This document shows positions 3,701 to 20,589 of a stretch of 20,723 bases of DNA, piece by piece; positions within the stretch are counted from its first letter, which is position 1; every line of letters starts with the position of its first letter. Position numbers and translations under genes: made by a program. This DNA comes from a virus. Below the pieces are notes generated by a model. The model was given only the letters and a program-made list of their open reading frames with translations, was not told the DNA's origin and did not search any database. The DNA lies in the IMG/VR virus record IMGVR_UViG_3300025769_001067, positions 1 through 20,723 of that record. One strand, written 5' to 3'.

Positions 3701-5182
3701 AGCAAGTTGCCCTGCAGACAAGATTAAGGCATCCTCTACATTTTGCTTTAGGTACGGATATGCCTTGAGGGTGTACATAGATTGCATTTTACGGTTGATT
3801 AGGTTTTGCCGCTTGCCTTCTAGCACCTTATATTCGGCACTGTTCTTGGCGACACCTTTGCGAACCAGTGCGTCCATTTCAAGGTCTATGTTCCGCAAAT
3901 CATCATTCAAACGACCCATAGCTTGTGTGGTTCGCTGTTGGCTAACCCCAATGCTAAGAGCCTTCAAGTTAATTTTGTTGCGTCCCTCTGCCTGATTGAT
4001 AATCTGTGCAGCCTCGAACGGGTCGTCCACATCGTCAAGGATGCGGCCCATAGCTGTACCCTTGTAAGAGTCCTTCAGTTTCTGGAACTTGCGTAAGGTT
4101 CGCTCACCTCTTAGCACACCCGGTCCTGCCATACCGACTACATTCTCAAGGAACATAACCCCAAACTGTTCGGAACGAGGCAGTTCGTTGAATGCAAGGT
4201 CGATGAGGTTCGCGGCGGCTTCTTCTGTGATGAACTCTTTTGGCTGCAGTTCGCCATCGACTTCTATCATTGCGCGAGCGTTGTATTGGTCTAGTGTAAT
4301 TTCACCCGCGTCTAGCTGGCGTTTAAATTCATCGTGAATGCCATCATTAAACGCCATCTTCATTGTTGGATTTGGAATTACAGAATTGATTGCTTTGTAG
4401 GTGGAGTCTAGGGCAGTTTGAATGTCTGTGCTTCTTGCACCCCACTCAGATGAAAAATCAGTTCCCTTTTCTTTTGCATCAAAGTATGCACCTAATGCGT
4501 TATACCCCATGATACCCGCCATAGGGATGCCGGTTACCAAGAACTGCCCAGCTTCTGCAAGCCGTGTCTCTAAAGAGCTATAGAAGTCTCCAGTTTCAAA
4601 CCGGTCAACGAAGATTTGACGAACCGTTGGGTCAGGCACATACTGGGATACAAGGTTATCAAGATTGACACGGTTCTGGGCGTAGCGTTCCGCAGCCGGA
4701 ATCATCAAGGGGTCTTGCACCACTTGGGCTGCAACTACTTCACCTTCGCGAACAAATGGGATGATAACATCTTCGCCGGGAACCTGTGGCTGAGATGACT
4801 TTGCCCACGCAGAACGCAGAGCAAGCATAGCTTTCGGATTGCTGTTCGCAAACTCCAAGACACGGTTGTTAATCTTGATGTCGCCTACCTGCTCTACTTT
4901 ACCGGCAAGGACATCTTCCCAAGCCACACCTGCTGTCTGCGCCTCAATATCTTGGGCAGCAGCAGGGGCTAGAGTTTTAGTTTCGGTAACAGGAACGTCC
5001 AGAACAGGGTCGCTTACAGTGGTTGTTCGCGAAACAGGGTCGTCAAGCATCACCTTGTTTTCTACAGGTGCAATGGAAATACGAGGGGGCTTGGTATCTG
5101 TAGCCGGAGCATCTCCAGATTTATCGAACCCTACAATATCCCGTTCAGCAACAGGTTTTGAAACTTCTCGTGGCTCTGCCAT
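725..5182 (-). CDS. Very large internal virion / ejection-type protein, 1485 residues
   Basis: The 1485-residue product is the largest in the window. Residues 1-75 are Pro/Thr/Val-rich and probably disordered. The rest is mainly helical and polar, with two hydrophobic stretches at about 212-234 (GQFLVTGIPMAGIMGYNALG) and 510-532 (AAEAIGLIGMMTIGAPTTRF) that could insert in a membrane. Long heptad-like tracts follow (about 600-800). I see no lysozyme or transglycosylase motif. Size, helical make-up, hydrophobic patches and position at the end of the tail operon match the large ejection proteins of podoviruses (T7 gp16 is the type example), which leave the capsid with the DNA. This is an inference; sequence identity to gp16 is not apparent. 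The ATG overlaps the upstream stop (TAATG) and GGGAG lies 9 bases before it. Val/Arg codons give many GTTCGC hexamers here. Confidence 0.7.
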   Translation of the reverse strand: MAEPREVSKPVAERDIVGFDKSGDAPATDTKPPRISIAPVENKVMLDDPVSRTTTVSDPVLDVPVTETKTLAPAAAQDIEAQTAGVAWEDVLAGKVEQVGDIKINNRVLEFANSNPKAMLALRSAWAKSSQPQVPGEDVIIPFVREGEVVAAQVVQDPLMIPAAERYAQNRVNLDNLVSQYVPDPTVRQIFVDRFETGDFYSSLETRLAEAGQFLVTGIPMAGIMGYNALGAYFDAKEKGTDFSSEWGARSTDIQTALDSTYKAINSVIPNPTMKMAFNDGIHDEFKRQLDAGEITLDQYNARAMIEVDGELQPKEFITEEAAANLIDLAFNELPRSEQFGVMFLENVVGMAGPGVLRGERTLRKFQKLKDSYKGTAMGRILDDVDDPFEAAQIINQAEGRNKINLKALSIGVSQQRTTQAMGRLNDDLRNIDLEMDALVRKGVAKNSAEYKVLEGKRQNLINRKMQSMYTLKAYPYLKQNVEDALILSAGQLAGREYLSSAYGMDPMAAEAIGLIGMMTIGAPTTRFIGGQASKFLSAPRGGVGSNVAAVADFMTFGKYKGFNITDNTLKDYEAATGIKLTAEQRKAINYSIYLVNNTSSPAAREKILKAVDDYVELQDRIVSQFPEESQDKAKELFTMSFAQSSNLGPLAALHAMSINKIDAKKLKNMDATYMVELMKQADAQVRATELALDNFQEFVRVTDGIADRESIQAMLDNTRNATAKFKDDLNRRSESTLEILGDIRKQVLSDPTIDVPEGFLDNLVEADVALKKRLGKIVDERKTIGEVVTDIYAGITDRVNSLKSRRGKGRGYVAGLSRAMEDALDAHLESMYAKGKAAYNAVREAAKTAPPIDMHDAVIDLMSKAGETDMARFFSPSGQFFAGRMGRIAYRTFDDMVKRTIPAETMGEIRQTLVANGFSQELVENMSDLEIALEMQRISPSFRPFAQANAYEVDEMRRAFRDYAYGVRESKSELGREVEMFAANMDNLIRTQDGETFSLLTKARETYRSEIGDRLRRGSTVRKLDDARQGPEKIEVDANSMTRYRYINEQSNPFGYIRPLTNKITGALNNKPADQADIRSMIDNLATDWGDRVDGQTVFNLDTEEGKAKFAAIQNLVNEQIYADWTERAIAVFEKTDGPASVLEGGYSFKNLADEGLMNDLTTVTIRQNGENIDVPLVNLGDMYSEARDISRIIRENKAVRKRYKEFADDFANVESQVRRNADNNIKMDADSLNALQRFTGDITPDQFYEQFVLNGSETKFDTLRDTFIPAVVKTGKSADEAEAMFDRAVSGLVSKAFMNRGGLAPSQGMRMTALDGGKMKVRQFTTPEVMLSDVQEHREMLEMILGADHVNYLTDIADFLDRAATSQARSVEGVVKGYSVNEGLSRLYNISRGMVSPLYVTSEFAVRMAAQSGIEILQLAAGNKEAARIINNMFKYPELVTRTDVDNLNGLLVEFATTELARMGQRKLPTLIGDEDETNTEGQ

Positions 5183-7044
5183 TAGGATTTTTCTCCCGCG
5201 CCCATTGCTTTTAGAACATCATTCATATTTGCTGGTTGTGTACCTGCTTCATCTCTGAACCAGTTATTGTTACCATCTGTGTAAAAACCAGAAGGGTCTA
5301 ATGTGAGACCGGTCTGAGGTTGCTCTCCAGCGGCGGGTACAGGCGCAGTTGCAGCAGGCGCAGTTGCAGACATACGGTAAGCCGCATTTAAAGCTTGTCT
5401 AGCAATCCTGTCTGCTTTTAGAAGACGGGCTTCACGAAGTCCAAAGCTATCCGCAGTTGCGACCTCGTTTAAAAGTACGAGACGACGTTGCGTTCTTTGA
5501 AAATCTGATATAACGGCATCTAAGCTGGCTCCAGCCTGTACCTTAGATGTAAACAGTCCTGATTGTCCAAGACGCTGTAGCTGAATCTCAAAGTCTTGGT
5601 TTGACAAGCGACCAGATGGGTCAACGGCACGAGCCATTTCTGCTGCAAGAGATAGCTTGAGTGCATCCACTGTTGAAAGATTTCGGGCAGATTCGGCAGA
5701 AAGGAACCCCTTATCAACAGCCCCTTGAACCAAGTTTTGGGGAGTGGTTCCTGTTTCCGTATCTAGATTAAAGTTACCAAAAATCTGTTCTGCCTGACCT
5801 CCTTCTCCAAAGATACCAAATCCTACCTTTACAAAAGCAGCCTTTAAACCTGTGGGGGTCATGTCATCAGCTATGAGTCCCTTTAATTGATTTAACTTAG
5901 CAAGGGCTTGGTTCGATGCCTCATACTGTTCCATCACTTTTTCACGACTCAACTTGTTTCGTGCAAAGTAATCTTCAGGGGCCTTTAGCTGAACAGTGTA
6001 ACCCTTGCGCTTGTTCGCGGCGGCGTATTTATCTTCTTGGATGGTTACCAAAGGTACAATAGACTGTGCCTGCATATACGGGTCGTCTCCGAACTCTTCT
6101 ATCAAATCGTTGCCAAGCTGCGCCCGCATTTCTGCAGAGCCACCGCCTGTCAAGTTCAATTGACCATAGCCCTTTGTTTCAAATTCTGCTGCTGTTATCA
6201 GAACTTGATAAGCTTCTCGTCCTGTATCCGCACGAACAACGTCCTTAAAATTGTTGATGTATTCTTGAGGATTATCATAGCCGTTCCGCTGGGCTATAGT
6301 TGTAATAGCGTTGAGTTCTGTGTCCGTGAAATCAAACGGTTCCTTTTTAGCTTCGTTTTGACCCGTTGTAAAAGTAAACACAAGGGCGTTGCTAGGGTTC
6401 TTAATTTCACCCTTTTGTGCCGCTGCTGATACTACTTTTTCATCTAAGCTAACGCCTACTTCACCAGACAAGTCTCCTAAATTGCTGTACAAAATATTAA
6501 ATGCAGACTCTGGTTGAATGTAGGTACGGTCACCTGACTGGGTTTCCATTTTCTTTAATATCTGACCATCTATGAAGAGATTACTATACCGTTGTAAATC
6601 TCCCACGAACTTCTTTTTTGCCATTGGGTTTTTATTAAGTTCGTCCATAAGACGGGCGCGGCTGTTTTCGTCCGCAAAAGTATTGTTAGCCCAAGTTAAC
6701 CATGTACCCCCGGCTCTCATTTGATTGTCTAGAAGAATGTTTTTATCGAAGTCTTTTGGCTTTACGAACTTAGCGTTTCCATAATTAATCGAAGAGTCGA
6801 TATCGCCCATAGTATTAGAGATGTTCGCTAAACCAGATAGACCTGCCTCACTTGCTAGATTTTTAAAACCTTCGCTGTTTGTGTCGACGTTCTTTGACTT
6901 TGCAAGTTCGACAACCCAGCCGCCTAGCATTTTTTTACGTTCGGCTTCTAGTTCTTGTTCTTTTAAAAGCTTCTCGTTTTTTTCCCGCGCAACGTCGTTC
7001 ATCCCTTTGAGGAATCCGCTTACAAATGCCACACCCATAGCCAT
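5182..7044 (-). CDS. Putative internal virion / ejection protein, 620 residues
   Basis: The 620-residue product starts MAMGVAFVSGFLKGMNDVA and continues into a charged coiled coil (about residues 14-42, rich in Lys and Glu). The centre (60-555) is mixed alpha/beta and polar. An Ala/Pro linker (about 558-579) precedes a short C-terminal unit (about 580-620) with Gly, Asn and Trp residues. No enzyme motif is evident. The N-terminal hydrophobic segment followed by a coiled coil resembles the start of internal core proteins of short-tailed phages, and its place directly before the 1485-residue gene (TAATG overlap) suggests the two act in one complex. GC and hexamer content are lower than in both neighbours, so it may have a different history. 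Alternative: a tail-tip or baseplate-like protein. Confidence 0.65.
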   Translation of the reverse strand: MAMGVAFVSGFLKGMNDVAREKNEKLLKEQELEAERKKMLGGWVVELAKSKNVDTNSEGFKNLASEAGLSGLANISNTMGDIDSSINYGNAKFVKPKDFDKNILLDNQMRAGGTWLTWANNTFADENSRARLMDELNKNPMAKKKFVGDLQRYSNLFIDGQILKKMETQSGDRTYIQPESAFNILYSNLGDLSGEVGVSLDEKVVSAAAQKGEIKNPSNALVFTFTTGQNEAKKEPFDFTDTELNAITTIAQRNGYDNPQEYINNFKDVVRADTGREAYQVLITAAEFETKGYGQLNLTGGGSAEMRAQLGNDLIEEFGDDPYMQAQSIVPLVTIQEDKYAAANKRKGYTVQLKAPEDYFARNKLSREKVMEQYEASNQALAKLNQLKGLIADDMTPTGLKAAFVKVGFGIFGEGGQAEQIFGNFNLDTETGTTPQNLVQGAVDKGFLSAESARNLSTVDALKLSLAAEMARAVDPSGRLSNQDFEIQLQRLGQSGLFTSKVQAGASLDAVISDFQRTQRRLVLLNEVATADSFGLREARLLKADRIARQALNAAYRMSATAPAATAPVPAAGEQPQTGLTLDPSGFYTDGNNNWFRDEAGTQPANMNDVLKAMGAGEKS

Positions 7045-9635: not shown

Positions 9636-9820
9636 CAGTCAGCATCCGCTATAGTCAACTCGCCAGCTTCTACCTGACGCAAGATTTCTGCGTAGTGGCG
9701 GTTGCCTACAGTCATAGGAACCCAGCGAACAGTGCCATCAATCGTTGCCTTAATATCAGTGTTTTCATTGTCTGGGTTATCCAGAGGAGCTTTTATGTAT
9801 TGTGCGTTTGCTATAATCAT
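9635..9820 (-). CDS. Small fibre-associated protein, 61 residues
   Basis: The sequence has an N-terminal beta part (MIIANAQYIKAPL, then IKATIDGTVRWVPM) and a helical C-terminus NRHYAEILRQVEAGELTIADA. The combination ATIDG...VPxxxxNRHYAEI...VEAGxLxIxxAD is one I know from short proteins and domains next to tail-fibre genes in many phages, often linked to tail-fibre assembly chaperones. The function is not established. The start overlaps the fibre gene stop as ATGA, and the gene directly follows the carbohydrate-binding-type fibre at 9817-10794, which supports a fibre-related role. It also recalls the assembly-type proteins at 12408 and 13353. Confidence 0.6.
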   Translation of the reverse strand: MIIANAQYIKAPLDNPDNENTDIKATIDGTVRWVPMTVGNRHYAEILRQVEAGELTIADAD

Positions 9821-10794
9821 AACTCTGCATCCCCCTGTAATCCTGAAACGGAACTGTAATTTTTTCCTGTGTGGTAAATGTAACCGCCGCTGGTATTAAT
9901 GGCATAAAGCTGTGCGCTAGCACCGTTACCAGAAGCGGTAAAAGTTGGGGTAGCACGTTTTTGTTCTGTCCATTGGAAATTGCCTAAAGTCTGAGTAGAG
10001 TAATCTACTGGGTACACATTTGTGTCTAAAACTTCGTAATACCGTTTGCATTGCCGCAACTCATCGCCAAAGCTGCGGTGTTCAAACGGCGTGGCCTGTT
10101 CGCCTAGTTCTAGCTGGACGCCGGTGATGTAAAAGGTTGCGCCAGAATTAGAAATCCATTGTGTGGCAGAAGCTGTTGACCAAGTGCCTGAAGCGTTCCA
10201 AGTGTTAGCTGTTCCTTGAAAATTAGAACCAGCACCAAGAGAAAAAATAACACCTACACCAATGCTATTTGATGCGCCTTCCCAAGTCCCTGTTGTATCA
10301 CCTGCGACAGTTATTGTTTTGTATTCCCAAGTGTTTGCTGATGATATGGTATATGTTGATGGATTAGTTCTGTTTCCAGCATTATTGCGAAAACCAACTG
10401 CGTAAGTTCCAGTAACACTTGAACGAACCCAAAATGAAAGTGTGACTGAATAAGCTGAAGATGTCCCCCAGTTTGCGTGTGAAAAGTTAAAGGCCTCAAC
10501 AAAATGGCGGTATGAGTATTCATCACTAGCCGCAATAGATGTGTCTGCTGTTGTCACAGTACACACAACACTGTGGTTGAAACCTGATGGGGCTGTAGAA
10601 CTTTGTTGCATAGAAAACGCACCAGCACCTACCTTGCTTGCTTTCCATCTGTCAACTGGAAACTGCCCATCTCCCGAAACCGATGCCCCAGCGTTGCGCT
10701 GGTCAATGACTTTTGCACCATTGATGATAAGGTTCCTGTTTGATAAAGCCGTCTGCGAACCAATCAGTGCGGCTAGTTCTGCTGCTTTACTCAT
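9817..10794 (-). CDS. Tail fibre / receptor-binding-type protein with jelly-roll-like domain, 325 residues
   Basis: The start begins MSKAAELAALIGSQTALSNRN followed by a NRNLIINGAKVIDQRNAG-type segment (about 19-36), which I recognise as the lead of a beta-sandwich, carbohydrate-binding-like module common at phage fibre ends. A beta-rich body follows (SYSVTLSFWVRSS region; a W-rich stretch about 165-215), then the hallmark VQLELGEQATPFEHRSFGDE (about 233-255) and QCKRYYE. The C-terminus is LQGDAEL. An upstream in-frame ATG (10821) exists, but I chose 10794 because its ATGA overlaps the stop of the preceding paralogue, as at other cassette junctions, and because the extra nine residues (MRRSSRRPR) are only the antisense of the preceding gene's end. 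It is probably the distal host-contacting fibre or part of it. Confidence 0.75.
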   Translation of the reverse strand: MSKAAELAALIGSQTALSNRNLIINGAKVIDQRNAGASVSGDGQFPVDRWKASKVGAGAFSMQQSSTAPSGFNHSVVCTVTTADTSIAASDEYSYRHFVEAFNFSHANWGTSSAYSVTLSFWVRSSVTGTYAVGFRNNAGNRTNPSTYTISSANTWEYKTITVAGDTTGTWEGASNSIGVGVIFSLGAGSNFQGTANTWNASGTWSTASATQWISNSGATFYITGVQLELGEQATPFEHRSFGDELRQCKRYYEVLDTNVYPVDYSTQTLGNFQWTEQKRATPTFTASGNGASAQLYAINTSGGYIYHTGKNYSSVSGLQGDAEL

Positions 10795-11162
10795 GCGAGG
10801 TCTCCGTGAACTGCGGCGCACTGCGGAACAGATGAACCACCGCCACTGCTTGTAAAAGTTTTCATTTTGAAGGAACTTGCGCTTCTAGCAAAAACTCCCA
10901 CAAATCTGTCTATTGCTGTTGGTTGAGGTTCATCAGCGGCAACGGTGATTGTATAATTTGTAATCATATTGTTCGTAAAAGTTGCGGTGTTATTATCCCC
11001 GTTGTCAGTGAAACTAGCAAAGTTAAAACTGTCACCGGCTGTAGCACCGCCGTCTAATTGTGCAACCCACGCCTTCGCACTACCGTTGGCAACATACGTC
11101 ATAGCCACTTCGTTTGACCCAGCGGCATCCTTCAGGGTGTTTACTCTAAGTTCGCTTGCCAT
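10791..11162 (-). CDS. Fibre-like paralogue C2 (second block), 123 residues
   Basis: The N-terminus reads MASELRVNTLKDAAGSNEVA then YVANGSAKAWV; the middle carries DSFNFASFTDNG and FTNNMITNYTITV; the C-terminus is VHGDLA. The segment YVxxGSAKAWV matches the C1 protein at 14211-14588, and 20 bases of DNA (11065-11084) are identical to 14494-14513. The middle pattern (S-F-N-x-S-x-x-D then FxNxMxxNY) is one I know as a beta-rich module in aquatic phage fibre-type proteins. It is the last unit of the second D-A-B-C block. Its TGA overlaps the next gene's ATG, with GAC CTC GCA just before the stop. Probably a short fibre or adhesin; the ligand is unknown. Confidence 0.7.
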   Translation of the reverse strand: MASELRVNTLKDAAGSNEVAMTYVANGSAKAWVAQLDGGATAGDSFNFASFTDNGDNNTATFTNNMITNYTITVAADEPQPTAIDRFVGVFARSASSFKMKTFTSSGGGSSVPQCAAVHGDLA

Positions 11163-11566
11163 TATGCGAGGTCTCCCGTGCTAAGAAAACTAAAATCGGC
11201 ATCGCCTGTAGAACCGTTATAGTCTTGAGTCGCAAAAGTAGCTGCGGTAGTGCTGGAATATATAGCACCGCTTTGTCCTGAAACATTGGGGTCTGATGCC
11301 GAACCTGTGCAACAACCAACGCAACTATATATATTTGCAAAAGCATTTGTAGCCGCTACAGTGTAGTTTCCTGTTGAATTGTCTGTAATGGAAGCATTAT
11401 TGAAAGAGTTTCTAACTGTGTTAGAGGTATTTGTATCAAACCATCCCCAATGCTTCGCCAAGCCCTGCTGAAGTGATTGCGTTGCTGCCCCACCTTCAGA
11501 TGTAACAGTAATGTCACCAGCCGCTGTGATACCTTGCAGTTCGTCTACTTTTAATATACTAGCCAT
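11162..11566 (-). CDS. Fibre-like paralogue B2 (second block), 134 residues
   Basis: The lead is MASILKVDELQGITAAGDIT then VTSEGGAATQSLQQGLAKHW, nearly the same as B1 at 14588-14995 (VTSEGGAATMQLQQGLAKVW). The middle has VRNSFNNASITDNSTGNYTV followed by a Cys-rich turn (YSCVGCC, about residues 74-80) that B1 lacks but C1 echoes (YSCPTAC). The C-terminal third is Ser/Thr/Gly-rich and variable, ending STGDLA. Beta-rich, with no signal peptide. TAATG overlaps join it to its neighbours on both sides. The strong N-terminal match to B1 plus a divergent C-terminus suggests the N-terminus docks and the C-terminus binds a ligand; that division is inference. Confidence 0.7.
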   Translation of the reverse strand: MASILKVDELQGITAAGDITVTSEGGAATQSLQQGLAKHWGWFDTNTSNTVRNSFNNASITDNSTGNYTVAATNAFANIYSCVGCCTGSASDPNVSGQSGAIYSSTTAATFATQDYNGSTGDADFSFLSTGDLA

Positions 11567-11943
11567 TATGCGAGGTCTCCCATTAATAAACCTGCTTGGT
11601 TTTCTACGTCTGCATCACTACCACCAGAAATTGTTGAATACATTAAAAATGTACTTGTAGATTTTATTCCTATTGTAGTCGTTCTATTAGAACGGTCAGT
11701 AGATGCATCTCCTCCTGCTACACCTGTGGCAAAGCTATCTGTTGAGGACAACGCAGAAGTCAGGGATGTTGTAGACTGCCCTGTTCCATTATCTGCTATA
11801 GAACTTACATTAAGACTTTTACGAATGTCTGGAACAGTCATGTCGTTATTACTATATGCTTTAGCCGCTTCCTGCTTAGTCAACCCAACAGGACCAGTGC
11901 CAGCCTTATCAGCAATAGTATCTACATTCAATACGCTGGTCAT
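11566..11943 (-). CDS. Fibre-like paralogue A2 (second block), 125 residues
   Basis: It starts MTSVLNVDTIADKAGTGPVG and carries the A-type signature PVGLTKQEAAKAY (A1 has PVTLTKQSAAKAW). The middle has IRKSLNVSSIADNGTG, the same beta module seen in all six paralogues. The C-terminus is GLLMGDLA. I moved the start from an upstream in-frame ATG at 11955 to 11943, because ATGA there overlaps the TGA stop of the D2 gene (11940-11942), exactly as A1 overlaps D1. The stop forms TAATG with B2. It is the most divergent middle domain of the six: the FxNxM and NY positions are not conserved. Confidence 0.7.
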   Translation of the reverse strand: MTSVLNVDTIADKAGTGPVGLTKQEAAKAYSNNDMTVPDIRKSLNVSSIADNGTGQSTTSLTSALSSTDSFATGVAGGDASTDRSNRTTTIGIKSTSTFLMYSTISGGSDADVENQAGLLMGDLA

Positions 11944-12398
11944 ACGATACTCCAATATCCATTAACAGTGACGACAGCGTTCTGTGTGATAGGCCCACCT
12001 GACACACCATTCTCATCGCTGTCAATAGTAATGTCTGCATTGATGGTCTGCCCATTCAAACGGATGATGCTGTTGTTACCTTTGAACGGATAACGTGTGT
12101 CACTTTCAACTTTAGTGTAGCTGTTCGCAACGCTGAACACATCATAGACTACAATCTCAACTACGTCATTTAAGCTAGCAGATGTGGTGAGTACAATGCT
12201 AGTACCACTTGTGCTGGTATAGTCAGTGACAGGCTTGAGTAGCACACCGTTCTGATACACGTCAACGTACAGGCCATCTGTGTAGGTCAGTGTCTTGCTA
12301 TCTGCATCACTGCCTGTGAAGGTAGTTTGACCAGCAGAGGCTTGGTAGAGGTAGCGGTTACGTACACCGTTTTGTGGGGATTTACCTATGTATGCCAT
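11940..12398 (-). CDS. Fibre-like protein D2 (second block), 152 residues
   Basis: It starts MAYIGKSPQNGVRNRYLYQA, then TTFTGSDADSKTLTYTDG, YVDVYQNGVLLKPVTDYT and VVEIVVYDVFSV. This series of beta strands is one I know from many aquatic-phage fibre N-termini (MAYIGKxPxxGVRxRY...YVDVYxNGVLL...DYT...DVVEIxxYDVF). The C-terminal part (about 95-152) has TRYPFKGNNSIIRLNG and ends VNGYWSIV. It resembles D1 at 15387-15902 in the opening MAYxG and in the VYxNxV...P...YT...D order. It opens the second D-A-B-C block. AAGGA precedes the ATG by about 7 bases. Probable role: attachment segment or short fibre. Confidence 0.7.
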   Translation of the reverse strand: MAYIGKSPQNGVRNRYLYQASAGQTTFTGSDADSKTLTYTDGLYVDVYQNGVLLKPVTDYTSTSGTSIVLTTSASLNDVVEIVVYDVFSVANSYTKVESDTRYPFKGNNSIIRLNGQTINADITIDSDENGVSGGPITQNAVVTVNGYWSIV

Positions 12399-12407
12399 CG
12401 TTATTCC

Positions 12408-12791
12408 TTATGGTTTAGTAGGCCACGTTACGTCATCAAGAGATGTGGCATTGTCTGTAATATCACGCAGGGCTTGACGGTAGGTTGTTTGTGCGGCGGT
12501 CATAGTAAGGTCACTAGATGCCCACCAATCTGTTTCTGCAATCAAACGATTACGTTCCTCACGAAGTAAACGCATAGGCTCCGCATTAACAAGTTCTGTT
12601 TTCTTAGCTGATACCTGTGACCAAGTTACACCAAAGTCGCTAGGTGTAGAGGATTCAACAGCACTACCATTATCATCAGCACCAGTAACCTTACGGAACA
12701 TTTGGTTAAACTCAGCCTCTGTGGTAGGCTCACCACGCAACACCCATTCGGTGATGCCCAGTTCGGTTAGAGACTTTGATATTGATGCCAT
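12408..12791 (-). CDS. Phage tail/fibre assembly chaperone-like protein, 127 residues
   Basis: The C-terminal half (about 73-127) reads MRLLREERNRLIAETDWWAS, then TYRQALRDITDNA and VTWPTKP. The series LRxERNxLIxxTDWW...YRQALRDIT...WP is the signature I know as the phage tail assembly chaperone family (Pfam Phage_tail_APC, PF16778, from memory). The N-terminal half (1-70) is less typical; ITEWVLRGEPTTEAEFNQMF may be a second small domain. Such proteins assist fibre folding or attachment. It lies between two fibre-like genes (12807-13313 and 11940-12398), which fits. SD AGGAG lies upstream of ATG 12791. It would be expected to act in the cytoplasm during assembly rather than in the particle. 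Confidence 0.8.
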   Translation of the reverse strand: MASISKSLTELGITEWVLRGEPTTEAEFNQMFRKVTGADDNGSAVESSTPSDFGVTWSQVSAKKTELVNAEPMRLLREERNRLIAETDWWASSDLTMTAAQTTYRQALRDITDNATSLDDVTWPTKP

Positions 12792-12806
12792 TTTGTTTAC
12801 TCCTGT

Positions 12807-13313
12807 TTATCCTGCGATTTCCATAAGAATCATTTCACATTTATTGTTTAATTCGGGGTTCATATCTACAGATGAAGTGTCATTTGCTAACTTACACATT
12901 TGGAATTTATAAGTTACAGCAGAAGTTGTACTAGGCGCATCAGTGTAAGAATAAGCAAGTGTTCCAAGTATATAGATGCCGCCAACCCCAAAATCATATG
13001 TTCTAATATTATGTCTTGAGATTTCTGTAGTATCACGCATTAATCTAGTGCTTCCGTGAATGTCTACTGTACCGCTTCTTTGTGCTGCTACAGACAGTGA
13101 AGCAAGAATTAATATCTTTGAATTTGTGCTGCTTGGCGTAATACTCAGCGTCATATTTGTCATATCTACATAACTTGTAGTTGTATTTGATAAATTGACA
13201 CCTGTGCTAATTTGCTTAACCTGAAGCAGACTCCCCGCACCAGTCACAGTGCCAGTGAACGCATAGTCATCTGTAAGGTCAATGCCTTCTGCTATAATCT
13301 TACTTAATGCCAT
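12807..13313 (-). CDS. Fibre/adhesin-like beta protein, 168 residues
   Basis: It starts MALSKIIAEGIDLTDDYAFT with a Gly-containing lead (FTGTVTGAG). A beta-rich domain follows with SYVDMTNMTLSITPSSTNSK, ILILASLSV, LMRDTTEI and SAVTYKFQM, ending CEMILMEIAG. The order SITPSSTxSKIL...RDxTxI...TYKxQ...ILMEIAG is one I know from beta-sandwich tail-fibre domains of marine phages and metagenomes. It has its own SD (GGAG before ATG 13313) and a stop 15 bases before the APC-like gene start. It sits in the spacer between the two D-A-B-C blocks, with assembly-type genes on both sides. It is AT-richer than the genes at 18056-19567. Role: probable accessory fibre. Confidence 0.65.
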   Translation of the reverse strand: MALSKIIAEGIDLTDDYAFTGTVTGAGSLLQVKQISTGVNLSNTTTSYVDMTNMTLSITPSSTNSKILILASLSVAAQRSGTVDIHGSTRLMRDTTEISRHNIRTYDFGVGGIYILGTLAYSYTDAPSTTSAVTYKFQMCKLANDTSSVDMNPELNNKCEMILMEIAG

Positions 13314-13342
13314 CTAGTTCTCCAACGGTCAAACAGGGATGA

Positions 13343-13365
13343 CCCCTACGCATTAAGCGTAAGGG
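13343..13365 (-). promoter_or_regulatory. Hairpin overlapping a stop codon
   Basis: Arms CCCCTACGC (13343-13351) and GCGTAAGGG (13357-13365) pair with one bulged A around the loop ATTAA (plus-strand view). On the minus transcript the stem includes the last codons and TAA stop of 13353-13727. It is not followed by a T-run, so a full terminator is unlikely. An mRNA-stabilising or partial-termination element is possible. Confidence 0.35.
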
Positions 13366-13727
13366 CTATCACCAAGTGTGTCTGCATCCCAAGCTGCCTT
13401 GAGTTCAACAATAGTTGTTGCTGCGTCAATTGCTGCAGCGGCAGGTGCATCACGAAGTGCAGCTTTCCTAGCTACAGATGCAGCCTTTGCAGTTGCATCG
13501 TCAGCCTCTAGTGCCTTCATGTATACTACGTCTTCTGCGTCTAGCAGTGGTTTGCGAACTTCACGAACCTTATCACGGAAGATGTCTTTGGCAGATGCCA
13601 TGTCTTCTGAAATGACATTGCCACTCAATGACCATGCACCACGAAAGGCACGGTCAGAAGGAACGGTAGCCGTAGAAGCATCAATCTGATTCCCGTCCTT
13701 GTCTACGATGTATGTTGTTACAGCCAT
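13353..13727 (-). CDS. Fibre-assembly-type protein with RxFRxAW motif, 124 residues
   Basis: The N-terminal beta part is MAVTTYIVDKDGNQIDASTA, then VPSDRAFRGAWSLSGNVISEDM (about 22-43), followed by helices DIFRDKVREVRKPLLDAEDV and VARKAALRDAPAAAAID with ELKAAWD near the end. I know the pattern PxDRxFRxAW...DM..A..I.RDK.R..RxPLL...D...LRD.P as a frequent protein of fibre loci in aquatic phages, often beside assembly chaperones; its function is not established. It shares the RxFRxAW element with the neighbour at 13738 (STREWRNAW). SD GGAG precedes ATG 13727. Its stop codon sits in a hairpin. Confidence 0.65.
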   Translation of the reverse strand: MAVTTYIVDKDGNQIDASTATVPSDRAFRGAWSLSGNVISEDMASAKDIFRDKVREVRKPLLDAEDVVYMKALEADDATAKAASVARKAALRDAPAAAAIDAATTIVELKAAWDADTLGDSPYA

Positions 13728-13737
13728 TGTTTTCTCC

Positions 13738-14211
13738 TTATGCTGCTAAATCAGTGACGCTTAGTTCTTCAGTTATCTTCCAAGCATTGCGCCACTCACG
13801 TGTGCTTGGCAACTGTTCTTTACGGCAGATAACCATCTTTGGTTTATTGCCTTGATTCCAGTTCTGCCACACGTGCTGTGGGCAGTCCTTCATAATTAAG
13901 TATTCGATAGCTTCTTCTTCAGTCATAGCCTCAACAGGTTCTGTGTTGTGCAGCAAGTAACCACGAGTGTGCTTCTTGAAGTCAGGTTGTGCTTCGTCCT
14001 TTGCCAACTCGTGATACACCCACACAGGTGGTAGGATACCGCCCTGCAATGCACACGCCATCCAGTTTGGGTCAGGCACAAGTATCTTGGCGCACTCATC
14101 AACGCTGTCCTCATAGACAACACGATAGTCTGACTGCACACCGTCTAGGTTTTCCTTTGCCCAGCATAGGCGGTCAAACAGGTGGGTGCCTTGAAATTCA
14201 GGTGTCTGCAT
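13738..14211 (-). CDS. Conserved fibre-locus protein, 157 residues, C-terminal RxWRxAW motif
   Basis: The body is mixed alpha/beta with aromatic residues (HLFDRLCWAKENLDG; DPNWMACALQGGILPPVWVY). The second half has EAMTEEEAIEYLIMKDCPQH, VWQNWNQGN and finally KMVICRKEQLPSTREWRNAWK (about 125-146). The last element is the same kind of motif as in the next gene (PSDRAFRGAW). I know similar C-terminal domains from hypothetical proteins in marine phage fibre regions; no function is proven. An assembly or attachment factor is plausible. Its ATG overlaps the TAA of the C1 paralogue (TAATG), so it is translated directly after the first D-A-B-C block. The N-terminal 110 residues are not recognised. 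Confidence 0.6.
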   Translation of the reverse strand: MQTPEFQGTHLFDRLCWAKENLDGVQSDYRVVYEDSVDECAKILVPDPNWMACALQGGILPPVWVYHELAKDEAQPDFKKHTRGYLLHNTEPVEAMTEEEAIEYLIMKDCPQHVWQNWNQGNKPKMVICRKEQLPSTREWRNAWKITEELSVTDLAA

Positions 14212-14588
14212 TATGCGAGGTCTCCTAAAAAACTAACCATATTAAAGTTTCTGTCTGCTAAAGAAGCATTTGCAAAAGAGTTAAACTTAGTAGACCCAGT
14301 CACAAAAGTGTGAGGGTCAAGGCTGCACGCTGTGCTACCTGCATCGCCATTGCTACACGCTGTTGGGCAAGAATAATTTGCATTTGCCATAGCATTGCTA
14401 AATGTTACGATTGTTTTTCCAGTTGAAACATCACTCAAACTTGACGTGTTCAGGCTATCTCTAATGCTGGTTGTTGTGTTTGAAGTATAGTTCACCCACG
14501 CCTTCGCACTACCCTCAACAACATAGTTCGTGGCGATTGACCCAGCGGTGCTGTGTTCAATCTGGTCTGCTATAATTTTTCCAGCCAT
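14211..14588 (-). CDS. Fibre-like paralogue C1 (first block), 125 residues
   Basis: Lead: MAGKIIADQIEHSTAGSIAT then YVVEGSAKAWVNY, the C-type signature shared with C2 at 10791-11162. Middle: IRDSLNTSSLSDVSTG and FSNAMANANYSCPTACSN, the module common to all six paralogues. Four Cys residues lie between about 76 and 92 (two in YSCPTAC), unusual for an extracellular fibre made in the cytoplasm. The C-terminus is VSFLGDLA. TAATG overlaps join it to B1 upstream and to the 157-residue gene downstream. Probable short fibre or adhesin. Confidence 0.7.
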   Translation of the reverse strand: MAGKIIADQIEHSTAGSIATNYVVEGSAKAWVNYTSNTTTSIRDSLNTSSLSDVSTGKTIVTFSNAMANANYSCPTACSNGDAGSTACSLDPHTFVTGSTKFNSFANASLADRNFNMVSFLGDLA

Positions 14589-14995
14589 TATGCGAGACTC
14601 CCGTGGATTGCAAAAGTTGCTATTGATGTATCATAAAATGACCCTGTTGTAGCACTTCGCAACTGAACGCTTGATGTACTGGTTGGTGATTGTACTAAAC
14701 CAAGTTGGTCACCCGCTGCTGTATGGTACGGTGTTGCACCGCCAATCGGAACACTGTAATTTATGTTGCTCATTGCGTTGGAGAAATTTGTGGTATAAGT
14801 CCCTGTCCCATCATCTACGATACTGGTCACGGCATACGAATCACGAATTGCAATAGTGCCTGTGCCATTGAAGTTAATCCAAACCTTCGCCAGCCCCTGC
14901 TGCAACTGCATAGTCGCCGCACCACCTTCACTTGTCACTGTAATGTCACCAGCGGTTGTCTTGCCGGTGAGGGTGTCTACTTTTATCTCACTCAT
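14588..14995 (-). CDS. Fibre-like paralogue B1 (first block), 135 residues
   Basis: Lead: MSEIKVDTLTGKTTAGDIT then VTSEGGAATMQLQQGLAKVW, nearly identical to B2. The middle has IRDSYAVTSIVDDGTGTYTT followed by FSNAMSNINYSVPIGG, the best example in the window of the beta module. The C-terminal third (about 85-135) is Ser/Thr/Gln-rich and unlike B2. It ends AIHGSLA, where the others end GDLA, so one residue of the conserved tail has changed. Its start overlaps the A1 stop (ATGA), and its stop overlaps the C1 start (TAATG). Confidence 0.7.
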   Translation of the reverse strand: MSEIKVDTLTGKTTAGDITVTSEGGAATMQLQQGLAKVWINFNGTGTIAIRDSYAVTSIVDDGTGTYTTNFSNAMSNINYSVPIGGATPYHTAAGDQLGLVQSPTSTSSVQLRSATTGSFYDTSIATFAIHGSLA

Positions 14996-15390
14996 GCTAG
15001 GTCTCCAAATACTGCCGTCATCTGATTGTCACTGTCTCCGCCGCCTGTTCCGCTGTTTAAAGCGTTGGCTGACTGAGTATTGTAGGTTGATGAGGTTGGT
15101 GGAACACCCCTTCTTAATCCTATTACAATCATAAACTCATTAGATGTACCGTCTTCGTAACCATTCATTCCAACTATAGTATAATTAGCATCACTCATAT
15201 TACTCCCAAAGGATATTTGAACGTGACCAGTCCCAACATCTGTTGCTGAACTGAAATTAAAAGATGACGTGGTGGTTAATGCGCTGCGTTGGTCTTGTCT
15301 TGTCCACGCCTTTGCCGCACTCTGCTTCGTCAGCGTGACAGGACTTGTGCCATCGCTTGCAGTAATTGTGTCTGTGCGTAATTCACTCAT
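14992..15390 (-). CDS. Fibre-like paralogue A1 (first block), 132 residues
   Basis: It starts MSELRTDTITASDGTSPVTL with the A-type signature PVTLTKQSAAKAW. The middle has SSFNFSSATDVGTGHVQISF and SNMSDANYTIVGMNGY, fitting the common module; its SFNFSSATD is closest to C2 (SFNFASFTD), not to A2. The C-terminus is Gly/Ser/Asn-rich and ends TAVFGDLA. It directly follows D1 through ATGA (15387-15390). Probably a short fibre subunit; the receptor is unknown. Confidence 0.7.
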   Translation of the reverse strand: MSELRTDTITASDGTSPVTLTKQSAAKAWTRQDQRSALTTTSSFNFSSATDVGTGHVQISFGSNMSDANYTIVGMNGYEDGTSNEFMIVIGLRRGVPPTSSTYNTQSANALNSGTGGGDSDNQMTAVFGDLA

Positions 15391-15902
15391 GCTATCACCA
15401 GATTACCGCCGGTTGTTACCGTCAGTGTTACCCCTGTTGCGATTGTCAATGGGCCAGCACAAAGCGCATTATCGGTTGCTGCGATGGTCACGTTAGTATC
15501 AAGCTGCTGTTCGTGAACACGGAAGATGTCACCCTTACCATTAGTCGTATCACCTGTCGCACCGTTCTCGCCTTGAAAGTAACCTGCGCCAAGAGATAGG
15601 CTAGGTGAAAGCATTGCCTGTGTAATTGTACCAGCACCCGGAGTTACAGTCTGCTGGGCTTTGCTTTGGAATACGACATAGAAATCATCACTAGCTACAA
15701 TGCTACCAGTCATTGTCAATGCAGTACCAGCTACAGTGTAAGCTACACCGGGTTCTTGGCGAACATTGTTTACATATACCTCAATGTCACCTACACTACC
15801 TGCAGGATAGTCAAGCGTAAAGGCTGTACCTGTACCGCCAGTTAAATCCTGATAGGATACTGTGCTGTAATTAGTCGCTGGTATATTACCAAGATATGCC
15901 AT
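15387..15902 (-). CDS. Fibre-like protein D1 (first block), 171 residues
   Basis: It starts MAYLGNIPATNYSTVSYQDL, then TAFTLDYPAG, DIEVYVNNVRQEPGVAYTVA and FYVVFQSKAQQ. This order of strands (MAYLGxxPA...FTL...IxVYxNxVxQEPxxxYxVxG...VVF) is one I know from the N-termini of many aquatic-phage tail fibres. The C-terminal part (about 95-171) has FQGENGATGDTTNGKGDIFR and a repetitive Thr-rich beta end (LTVTTGGNLVIA). It opens the first D-A-B-C block and corresponds to D2 at 11940-12398. Its SD is internal to AAGGATTAGGG before ATG 15902. Its stop overlaps A1 as ATGA. Confidence 0.7.
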   Translation of the reverse strand: MAYLGNIPATNYSTVSYQDLTGGTGTAFTLDYPAGSVGDIEVYVNNVRQEPGVAYTVAGTALTMTGSIVASDDFYVVFQSKAQQTVTPGAGTITQAMLSPSLSLGAGYFQGENGATGDTTNGKGDIFRVHEQQLDTNVTIAATDNALCAGPLTIATGVTLTVTTGGNLVIA

Positions 15903-15912
15903 GCCCTAATCC

Positions 15913-16257
15913 TTACGTAATGTCAAGATGGCTGAGAACAACGTCAGCGGATGAAGCAGTATCGGATGTTACTTTGATAGCATCACCCGGTTCTAGTACC
16001 ACTTTCTGGTCTCCACCTACCACAACTAAAGAACCACCAACTGGAATTGGTGCCTCTTTAACAAGGTAAACACTGTCTTCTGCACCGCTAGTACGACCTG
16101 AAGCATCAAGCTGTACGTCTACGGTAATCTGACTTGTTACAATGTTAGAGATACTCAACCCAATGATGGTGGTTTCGGTTGCAGCACCACAAGTAAGGAT
16201 AGTCGCTGGGGACGTTCCTACTGCAGTATCTGTCTCTGATAAAAATGCGTTTGCCAT
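15913..16257 (-). CDS. Small beta-rich virion-type protein, 114 residues
   Basis: It starts MANAFLSETDTAVGTSPATI. The chain is Val/Thr/Ser/Ala-rich, predicted all-beta, with ISNIVTSQITVDVQL and VVLEPGDAIKVTSDTASSAD as core strands. The order (L/I-x-I-S/T-N...T-V...G-D-x-I-x-V...A-D-V-V) also fits the 118-residue protein at 20233-20589. This resembles small proteins of marine phages that I suspect are decoration or tail-attached beta-sandwiches; no function is established. It is the first gene after the consensus promoter at 16278-16306 and so the first of the fibre cassette transcript. SD AGAGGG is at the very start of the predicted transcript. Confidence 0.6.
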   Translation of the reverse strand: MANAFLSETDTAVGTSPATILTCGAATETTIIGLSISNIVTSQITVDVQLDASGRTSGAEDSVYLVKEAPIPVGGSLVVVGGDQKVVLEPGDAIKVTSDTASSADVVLSHLDIT

Positions 16258-16277
16258 GTTTATCCCTCTTCGGATAT

Positions 16278-16306
16278 ATTATAAAGTAATTTTACTTGTT
16301 TGTCAA
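16278..16306 (-). promoter_or_regulatory. Consensus sigma70 promoter, exact -35 and -10
   Basis: On the minus strand TTGACA (16301-16306) is followed after exactly 17 bases by TATAAT (16278-16283), an exact match to both consensus hexamers with the ideal spacing. It lies in the 52-base gap between the 580-residue fibre stop and the ATG at 16257, pointing into the fibre cassette. Initiation is expected near 16271, giving a leader of only about 14 bases, so the ribosome binding site (16262-16270) is at the RNA 5' end. The gap is the longest stretch free of coding sequence on the minus strand apart from the window edges. Confidence 0.75.
16284..16297 (-). promoter_or_regulatory. Inverted repeat in the promoter spacer, candidate operator
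   Basis: AAGTAA (16284-16289) and TTACTT (16292-16297) form a 6-2-6 inverted repeat that exactly abuts the -10 hexamer and ends 3 bases from the -35 hexamer. A dimeric repressor bound there would block polymerase. The repeat is AT-rich and short, so chance is possible. Confidence 0.4.
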
Positions 16307-16309
16307 CAG

Positions 16310-18052
16310 TTATCCTAGTGCAATCGCAAAGGCTAATGCTGATGGGTCAGTTTCTGTAATTGTAGGCGTATCCCAAGACAAAGTACCTGAACCATCTGTC
16401 ACAAGTGCCTGTCCTGCAGTACCATCACCATCAGGGAAGGTGAATGTTGTATTTGTTGTTACTGTATTAGGTGCTTGGAAACGAAGATAGTTAAAGCTGC
16501 CAGAATTTATGTCATTGAATTGTAGATAACCACTAGCTTCTGTGCCGTTTACTGTAGTTTTTAGGCGTGTTACACCAAGACCATCGTTAATAGAAACACC
16601 ACCGCCAGTAGCGTATACAAATGTTTTAGTACCGTCTTCACTTTGAAGGCCAACATTATCAGACTTCATGTACAAGCCACCAGTAGCACTAGAAACAATA
16701 GTACTGTGGTTATTATTAGGGTCTTGATAGATTTCTAATTCTTGCCCAGCACCAAACTGTAAGCGGTCATCTGTTGCACTTGAACTGTCACCGAACTGAA
16801 CAAGCTGTCCATTAGTATCTAGTGTGCCACCAAGCTGTGGGGTCAAGTCCTCTACAACATTAGCTATCCCGGCCCCTGCAGTTACCTGTGCGTCAACATA
16901 TGCCTTGATAGACTGTTGAGTTGCTAACTGCGTATCACTGTCAGAAGCCATATTGTCTTCGTCTAGAATGGCGGTTCCACTAACCCCTGTATCTAAAACT
17001 GCACTGGTAAGAGTTTTGTTGGTTAGCGTTTGAGTATCTGTGAGGGTTGCAACAGTGCTGTCGATTGCAAGGGTAACTGTCTGGCCCGTTGCAGATGTGT
17101 CGATACCAGTTCCGCCTGTTACAGTAAGAGACTGACTATCCAAATCTACAGCAGCGGTTCCCGTATCCGCAGCAACGTCCAAATCTTGGGCCGTAACCTG
17201 TGCATCTACGTAGGCTTTGGTTGCCTTTGCAGATGGAATCGTATCATCACTTGCTGAAACCGATGTGAGGTCTGTGTCCAAAATACCTGATGCAAGCATG
17301 GTTGTGTCGATGTTGGAAATGGTGTTGCTTGCAGCATCGATAGTCTTGTTAGTTAAGGTTTGCGAACCGGTTAGGGTAGCAACTGTGCTATCAATAGCCA
17401 GCGTCACGGTTTGTCCGGTTGCTGAACTATCGATACCTGTACCGCCTGCAACGGTAAGAGACTGACTATCAAGGTCAACTGCCGCCGTGCCTGTGTCTGC
17501 AGCCACATCTAAGTCTTGTGCAGTTACCTGTGCATCCACGTAGGTCTTAATTGCTTTTGCAGAAGCGAGGGTGTCATCAGATGCCGATACAGATGTTAGG
17601 TCAGTGTCTACGTCGGTTACGGCTGTTGCGGTTCCAATCACAAGGGCATCTACATTGGCTGTGCCGTCTAGGTACAGGTCTTTCCACTCTGCAGATACGC
17701 TACCTAAATCATACGCATCGTCGGTGTCTGGAATGATATCTGAATTGTAGCTAGTGGATGAGATGTTGTTTGCAACCACATCCCCTGCAAAGTAACCGTC
17801 TTTAAATTTAAGGGTTACACTGCCTACGTCTAGGGTATTGTTTGTTTTTGGAAGAACCTGTGTTCCACTTACAACCACGTCCTGTGCCGGACCAACAACA
17901 GTAATCGGCGCACCGTTTCCAGATGTGCCGTCGTGTGTGTGTCCCGTTGAATTGTTAAACGCAGTTACTAGCTGGTCGAACTCATCGTTGGAGTGTGCGG
18001 CGGTGATAACGTCGCCATCTGTAAATGTCGATTGACGGGTATAACCTGCCAT
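16310..18052 (-). CDS. Tail fibre protein with two 110-residue repeats, 580 residues
   Basis: Residues 1-50 (MAGYTRQSTFTDGDVITAAH, DEFDQL, GHTHDGTSGNGAPI) are the N-terminal attachment type I know from aquatic podovirus fibres. A unit with strands and LKFKDGYFAGD / YDLGSVSAEWKDLYLDG follows (to about 140). Then come two repeats of 110 residues: 149-237 and 259-347, each with SVSASDD, YVDAQVTAQDLDVAADTGTA, GGTGIDxSATGQTVTL and TLTNKT. A partial third (KAYVDAQVTAGAGI, about 383-396) follows. The C-terminal part (about 400-580) is beta-rich with FxFPDGDGTAGQALVTDGSG (about 538-556) and ends LAFAIALG. No enzyme motif. It probably forms the shaft of the main fibre, with host contact elsewhere. SD GGAAGGAG lies inside the previous gene's last codons. 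Confidence 0.8.
   Translation of the reverse strand: MAGYTRQSTFTDGDVITAAHSNDEFDQLVTAFNNSTGHTHDGTSGNGAPITVVGPAQDVVVSGTQVLPKTNNTLDVGSVTLKFKDGYFAGDVVANNISSTSYNSDIIPDTDDAYDLGSVSAEWKDLYLDGTANVDALVIGTATAVTDVDTDLTSVSASDDTLASAKAIKTYVDAQVTAQDLDVAADTGTAAVDLDSQSLTVAGGTGIDSSATGQTVTLAIDSTVATLTGSQTLTNKTIDAASNTISNIDTTMLASGILDTDLTSVSASDDTIPSAKATKAYVDAQVTAQDLDVAADTGTAAVDLDSQSLTVTGGTGIDTSATGQTVTLAIDSTVATLTDTQTLTNKTLTSAVLDTGVSGTAILDEDNMASDSDTQLATQQSIKAYVDAQVTAGAGIANVVEDLTPQLGGTLDTNGQLVQFGDSSSATDDRLQFGAGQELEIYQDPNNNHSTIVSSATGGLYMKSDNVGLQSEDGTKTFVYATGGGVSINDGLGVTRLKTTVNGTEASGYLQFNDINSGSFNYLRFQAPNTVTTNTTFTFPDGDGTAGQALVTDGSGTLSWDTPTITETDPSALAFAIALG
17012..17608 (-). repeat. Two 110-residue (330-base period) repeats inside the fibre gene
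   Basis: Copy 1 is 17342-17608 and copy 2 is 17012-17278, in the same frame. The proteins are almost the same, yet codons differ widely. Over the 28 residues A174-V201 and A284-V311 (start AQVTAQDLDV, end DSQSLTV) I counted 19 codons that differ, all synonymously. A partial third copy is at about 16865-16936. Confidence 0.8.
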
Positions 18053-20232: not shown

Positions 20233-20589
20233 TTACCTATTTGGGTCGTAAAATTCTTCTGTACTAATTGTTACTATTAAGGTATTAGCAGTGCTAGCAG
20301 CAACAATAACCTTGTCACCCGCATGTAGATACAGAGGTTTATCTACTGTAAATACAGAATCAAACGTACCTCCTGCCAAAGAATGTCCAGAAAGAATAGT
20401 GTGGGTTATTGCTTCGTCTGCGTGATACCATTTTAAGGTGTAATTTCGGTTAGACGAATCGTTGTTGGTGATTAAAAGATGCGCTACGTGTGATGAAAAG
20501 TTATTAGGTACAACATAGATATCTGTATCTGACGTAGTTGTAAGGTCTACAGATTCTGTAAAAAACTTACTATTTCCAAGTACGGGCAT
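20233..20589 (-). CDS. Small beta-rich virion-type protein, 118 residues
   Basis: It starts MPVLGNSKFFTESVDLTTTS, with YVVPNNFSSHVAHLLITNND, YTLKWYHADEAI and LHAGDKVIVAASTANTLIVT as successive strands. The predicted fold is an all-beta sandwich. The order of elements (HLLITNN, GD-x-V-x-V, T-V-x-I-S-x-E-E) matches the 114-residue protein at 15913-16257. I know similar small proteins from marine phage virion operons, possibly decoration or head-closure proteins; the function is not established. Placed just before the adaptor, it is likely a connector or capsid accessory. The gene starts directly at the stop of the partial basic protein (2-base spacing). Confidence 0.65.
   Translation of the reverse strand: MPVLGNSKFFTESVDLTTTSDTDIYVVPNNFSSHVAHLLITNNDSSNRNYTLKWYHADEAITHTILSGHSLAGGTFDSVFTVDKPLYLHAGDKVIVAASTANTLIVTISTEEFYDPNR

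Follow-up and report, generated by a model that had tools for sequence, protein, structure and literature searches.

Phages of the HMO-2011 type reportedly make up one of the most abundant marine phage groups known (PMC6918029). A literature search found no promoter map for these phages, and the word promoter is absent from the RCA-phage papers PMC8528129 and PMC6918029. Among known systems, a close counterpart of the locus described here is found in HMO-2011, which carries two perfect TTGACA-N17-TATAAT sites in 55 kb, one of them at the fibre/cassette junction. This site (31754-31726, in the gap between the tail fibre gene gp43 and gp42) occupies the junction equivalent to that in the window, the term used here for the whole stretch of 20,723 bases analysed; the HMO-2011 record annotates no promoter there. 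The spacer and the leader differ between the two phages, the palindrome present in the window spacer is absent from HMO-2011, and the homologue gp42 is about 45% identical.

Internal sigma70-type promoters of phage operons resemble the window site in the consensus hexamers, the 17-nt spacer, the predicted purine start and the intergenic position before a Shine-Dalgarno sequence and an ATG. Unlike these promoters, the window site shows the full consensus and a very wide conservation at one module boundary. A further precedent is T4 gene e and I-TevI, for which a late promoter is combined with an inhibitory leader hairpin (PMC3014915). As in these two T4 cases, the window promoter stands beside the 5' arm of a small hairpin overlapping the ribosome-binding site, but it is of the sigma70 type instead of the T4 late type, and no hiding of the Shine-Dalgarno sequence is predicted.

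Gene organization of the window

The record covers 20.7 kb of a viral genome and lacks the replication region. The homology and common order of its morphogenesis genes identify the window as part of an HMO-2011-type podophage. The 503-aa nozzle-like protein shares 51% identity over its whole length with its counterpart in Puniceispirillum phage HMO-2011 and 49.5% with that in Pelagibacter phage HTVC033P, and the 220-aa protein matched Pfam SU10_adaptor. The order of adaptor, nozzle, main fibre, ~110-aa gene and small fibre gene array is the same as in HMO-2011.

The 114-aa protein, encoded at the head of the small-fibre cassette, is predicted with high confidence to be all-beta, with a jelly-roll-like fold (pLDDT 93). 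Among the best structural matches of the model were the KHP40 cement protein (Z 9.6, rmsd 3.0, 103 aligned) and the HFTV1 turret (Z 9.3, rmsd 3.5, 100 aligned), while unrelated nucleoplasmins matched at the same level. Based on this common fold, the product may be a capsid-surface or fibre-head protein, and a strong promoter would suit such a protein if many copies of it are needed. Both the 114-aa protein and a 118-aa protein encoded at 20233-20589 matched phrog_1276; the two align over their length with 19% identity and may be distant paralogues. Many relatives have a comparable series of small genes (about 150, 125, 140, 125, 157 and 124 aa) downstream of the 114-aa gene; the small-fibre cassette, though variable, has an order.

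A consensus promoter between the fibre gene and the cassette

On the minus strand, positions 16306-16278 read TTGACA-N17-TATAAT, an exact match, as stated in the initial annotation. The 580-aa fibre gene and the 114-aa gene are separated by 52 nt (16258-16309), and the site is located in this gap, with the -35 hexamer 4 nt from the fibre stop codon (Table 1). No terminator was found in this gap.

Table 1. Positions of the promoter elements, leader elements and neighbouring genes in the window.
Feature	Position	Strand	Remark
-35 hexamer TTGACA	16301..16306	-	exact match; near-invariant across 28 lineages
17-nt spacer AACAAGTAAAATTACTT	16284..16300	-	fixed length, free sequence; low information per column
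-10 hexamer TATAAT	16278..16283	-	exact match; near-invariant across 28 lineages
6-2-6 inverted repeat AAGTAA-AA-TTACTT	16284..16297	.	touches -10 box; judged incidental
Conserved 16-nt block ATATCCRAAGAGGGAT after -10 box	16262-16277	-	window's clade
Leader dyad TATCC-GAAGAG-GGATA	16261..16276	-	spans predicted start and Shine-Dalgarno
Predicted transcription start, G	16271	-	predicted from sequence
Shine-Dalgarno GAGG of 114-aa gene	16265..16268	-	from sequence
580-aa main tail-fibre gene	16310..18052	-	upstream of promoter
114-aa jelly-roll protein gene	15913..16257	-	first behind promoter
Remainder of small-fibre cassette	9817..15902	-	downstream of promoter

A consensus match may arise by chance and have no function, and loose promoter-like sites do occur in the window at a chance number (30 versus 27.6 expected). 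Just one of these 30, however, scores 12/12, and this is the sole perfect TTGACA-N15..19-TATAAT of the window, for which dinucleotide shuffles give an expectation of 0.02. Since very divergent phages also keep the site at one junction, with an unchanging spacing, as described below, a functionless coincidence has virtually no probability.

Conservation of the promoter among related phages

Relatives were gathered from viral contigs as homologues of the 114-aa gene, homologues of the nozzle gene and contigs with the leader motif, and were scanned for promoters with at least 10/12 hexamer matches, spacers of 15-19 nt being allowed with a mild preference for 17. Upstream of the 114-aa homologues, such a promoter was detected in 92 of 111 distinct 100-nt regions, with a score of 12/12 in 75, 11/12 in 10 and 10/12 in 7, and the spacer was 17 nt long in all 92. 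The promoter is retained down to ~40% protein identity. When spacers differing at 4 or more of the 17 positions were taken as separate lineages, 28 lineages were obtained, over which the information content is 1.4-2.0 bits per position in the hexamers and about 0.1-1.2 in the spacer. Perfect sites with a 17-nt spacer number 15 in 15 records (523 kb), against 0.2 expected, and nine of them are the fibre-cassette promoter.

Sampling from the nozzle side gave 50 contigs in which the fibre gene could be read to its end, and in 44 of them the promoter directly follows the fibre stop codon. Two of the six exceptions are L092 (G001), which does carry the promoter, its fibre frame having been read to an early end, and L137, in which the promoter is located further on, before the 114-aa gene. 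The stop codon TGA of the fibre gene lies inside TTGACA in some relatives. In L107, L128 and L129, the 114-aa gene is preceded by one of 149 aa; the promoter remains beside the fibre gene in all three, indicating that its tie is stronger to the module boundary than to any single gene. The check proposed at the outset, a comparison of this gap in related phages, thus found both hexamers kept and indicates that the promoter is real and selected.

Immediately upstream of the 114-aa gene, the promoter is missing from 19 of the 111 upstream regions, the gap being short in most of them; two of the 19, L107 and L128, have the promoter one gene upstream. No near-consensus promoter was detected at the fibre end of CRP-2, CRP-13, CRP-235, CRP-738, CRP-207, phiM6, HTVC115P and HTVC033P, the one 10/12 match in CRP-207 being inside coding sequence. 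The promoter is common in the group, yet some lineages can dispense with it, since these 19 relatives and several isolates are without it. A link between the promoter and a small-gene rather than a large-gene array downstream was weak, a large gene being near in 13 of 59 cases with the promoter versus 7 of 18 without it.

The inverted repeat within the spacer

The 6-2-6 repeat noted in the initial annotation is present in the spacer and touches the -10 box, but its description there as an ideal site for a repressor did not hold. Under such control, a phage or host dimer bound to AAGTAA-TT-TTACTT (plus-strand view) would silence the cassette. The repeat is perfect and abuts the -10 box, and a silent state could exist, because HMO-2011-type isolates are reported with an integrase (PMC8528129) and one of them integrates (PMC6918029); in the relatives, however, the repeat is not maintained. 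Its perfect form is limited to the window and two near-identical contigs. Arms of 6 are present in one of the 28 spacer-distinct lineages, that of the window, while the other 27 have arms of at most 4, and the palindrome is broken in relatives that share 96-99% identity in the 114-aa protein; the nearest relatives read AAGTAAAAATACTT (L006, L087) and AAGTAAAATTACTC (L018, L017). Over the 28 lineages, spacer dyads show no enrichment (Fisher p 0.9995), and HTH_3, the sole repressor family searched, had no match in eight records. Shuffling of the window spacer gave arms of at least 6 in 0.95% of cases, so that the palindrome is merely mildly unusual for an AT-rich spacer. It is best read from these comparisons as a chance coincidence of one lineage; it was rejected as an operator on the comparison of relatives, and silencing through the spacer is very improbable.

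The leader sequence and its dyads

The predicted start is the 7th base after TATAAT, which in the clade of the window is G in 18 of 24 sequences and A in 6 of 24, always after C; a purine is found at this position in 56 of 63 distinct sequences. The same base, located where the RNA would be expected to start, is the main variable base of the 16-nt leader block. This block, ATATCCRAAGAGGGAT, is 94-100% identical in members with 41-53% identity in the spacer and 43-47% in the first 60 coding nt, the lowest value in the set being 88% in L021. In all 43 contigs with the block (30 distinct forms, counted with the previously collected loci), it follows the -10 box and precedes a member of the 114-aa gene family.

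Such conservation exceeds the needs of a plain promoter with a Shine-Dalgarno sequence, and counts against the site being nothing else. A full-consensus promoter with no visible control also raises the question of timing, which is counted on the same side. Regulation through the sequence between the -10 box and the start might account for the conserved leader: a clade-specific regulator would recognize TATCC-N6-GGATA in the clade of the window and dyads centred on the -10 box in sister clades. The sister-clade dyads, CAGTATAMTATACTG and CTGTATAMTATACAG, have arms that differ jointly on both sides, CAG/CTG in one and CTG/CAG in the other, and dyads over -35 to +16 exceed those in shuffled sequences in 13 clade representatives (Fisher p 4e-6). 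This excess is a mere lead, because the representatives are related and the shuffles simple. Moreover, the whole 16-nt block is conserved instead of the arms alone, L021 breaks one arm, and each genome has one exact copy of the dyad. The copy number also led to the rejection of TATCC-N6-GGATA as a multi-copy phage operator, near-copies being at about the shuffle level. Taken together, this kind of regulation is doubtful; a leader operator at TATCC-N6-GGATA is possible but unsupported, given the single exact copy in each genome and the lack of an HTH_3 match in the eight records. It is unlikely that a whole family of fibre-boundary promoters is under clade-specific dyads at -10/+1 that diverge with a candidate phage regulator.

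The leader dyad may alternatively act in the RNA, as in T4 gene e: a hairpin in the read-through RNA would hide the Shine-Dalgarno sequence, while the transcript from the promoter itself, devoid of the 5' arm, would be translated. The hairpin UAUCC-GAAGAG-GGAUA has a predicted folding energy of about -5 kcal/mol, the 5' arm precedes the predicted start, and T4 gene e and I-TevI offer a precedent (PMC3014915). The Shine-Dalgarno sequence is, however, mostly in the hairpin loop, and its predicted accessibility in the window clade is equal in the read-through RNA and in the promoter's own transcript (means 0.68 vs 0.67). No such hairpin was found in other clades. Hiding of the Shine-Dalgarno sequence was rejected on the basis of the equal accessibility, and a switch of this kind is quite improbable.

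Other promoter-like sequences in the group

The capsid gene is preceded by a near-consensus site in HMO-2011, CRP-13 and CRP-2. In G001, G003, G007 and G011, such a site is found before a ~70-aa gene that lies upstream of the adaptor. No sigma-factor family scored above the cut-off in a profile search of eight records, and no RNA polymerase annotation was found in the portions of the HMO-2011 record examined; a PF00940 profile search for a phage RNA polymerase gave no information, since the control matched nowhere. The host polymerase is therefore the likely reader of the fibre-cassette promoter. The claim that a promoter of this type is rare inside a late operon is unfit for the HMO-2011-type group, given the other near-consensus sites and the lack of a detected phage sigma family or RNA polymerase.

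The promoter before the HMO-2011 capsid gene, TTGACA-N16-TATAAC-TA, contains a dyad of the TAGTTA..TAACTA type (L178 17590-17617, corresponding to HMO-2011 37590-37617, minus strand). The motif recurs with a changed loop in three relatives, L175 (10133-10160, minus strand), L187 (2843-2870) and L232 (CRP-1); its position relative to the capsid gene is established in HMO-2011 alone. The dyad is possibly an operator or an RNA hairpin. The second recurrent near-consensus promoter, before the ~70-aa gene (MKKLAIDALRHRYEAEKKSAEY..), is located at 3962-3990 in G003, 34257-34285 in G007, 36305-36333 in G001 and 10249-10277 in G011, upstream of the adaptor. Its spacer in G003 and G007 has the dyad GACTAAA..TTTAGTC, which takes in part of the -35 box. 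L189 (G012) has a second perfect promoter match at 5519-5547, overlapping both the 3' end of the 114-aa gene and the ATG that follows. This match looks like a by-product of coding sequence, since the corresponding gene end in the window has TTGACATT without a -10 box.

Proposed role in transcription of the structural operon

Based on the conserved hexamers, the constant spacer length and the constant position, the site is most probably an internal host promoter of sigma70 type, selected at the fibre/cassette boundary of HMO-2011-type phages and restarting or boosting transcription of the cassette. The main (sigma70-type) RNA polymerase of the host would bind TTGACA-N17-TATAAT and start at about 16271, making a 14-nt leader, GAAGAGGGATAAAC, that would bring the Shine-Dalgarno sequence to the first cassette gene. 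The activity of the promoter would restore or raise transcription, and hence the dosage of the cassette products, in the distal part of a long structural operon, adding to read-through from promoters further upstream. The simplest scheme would be a long structural operon restarted at module boundaries.

The initial annotation had given the cassette a transcription start of its own near 16271, independent of the upstream genes. The start stands in so far as the hexamers are kept and the promoter very probably works, but "independent" is too strong a word, because the gap has no terminator and read-through from upstream is not blocked. The promoter would thus add to read-through without isolating the cassette. 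Repressible or silent-state control of the cassette, proposed at the same time, is speculation.

Judged from the comparison of relatives, this is a genuine, conserved internal sigma70-type promoter with an incidental palindrome; its regulation is unproven. The comparison separates the selected parts, namely the hexamers, their spacing and the 16-nt leader, from the noise of the palindrome. If clade-specific dyad control proved true, it could hold the cassette off early or when the phage is integrated, and then switch it on. For the HMO-2011-type phages, the site provides a concrete promoter with a predicted start, common to many uncultured relatives.
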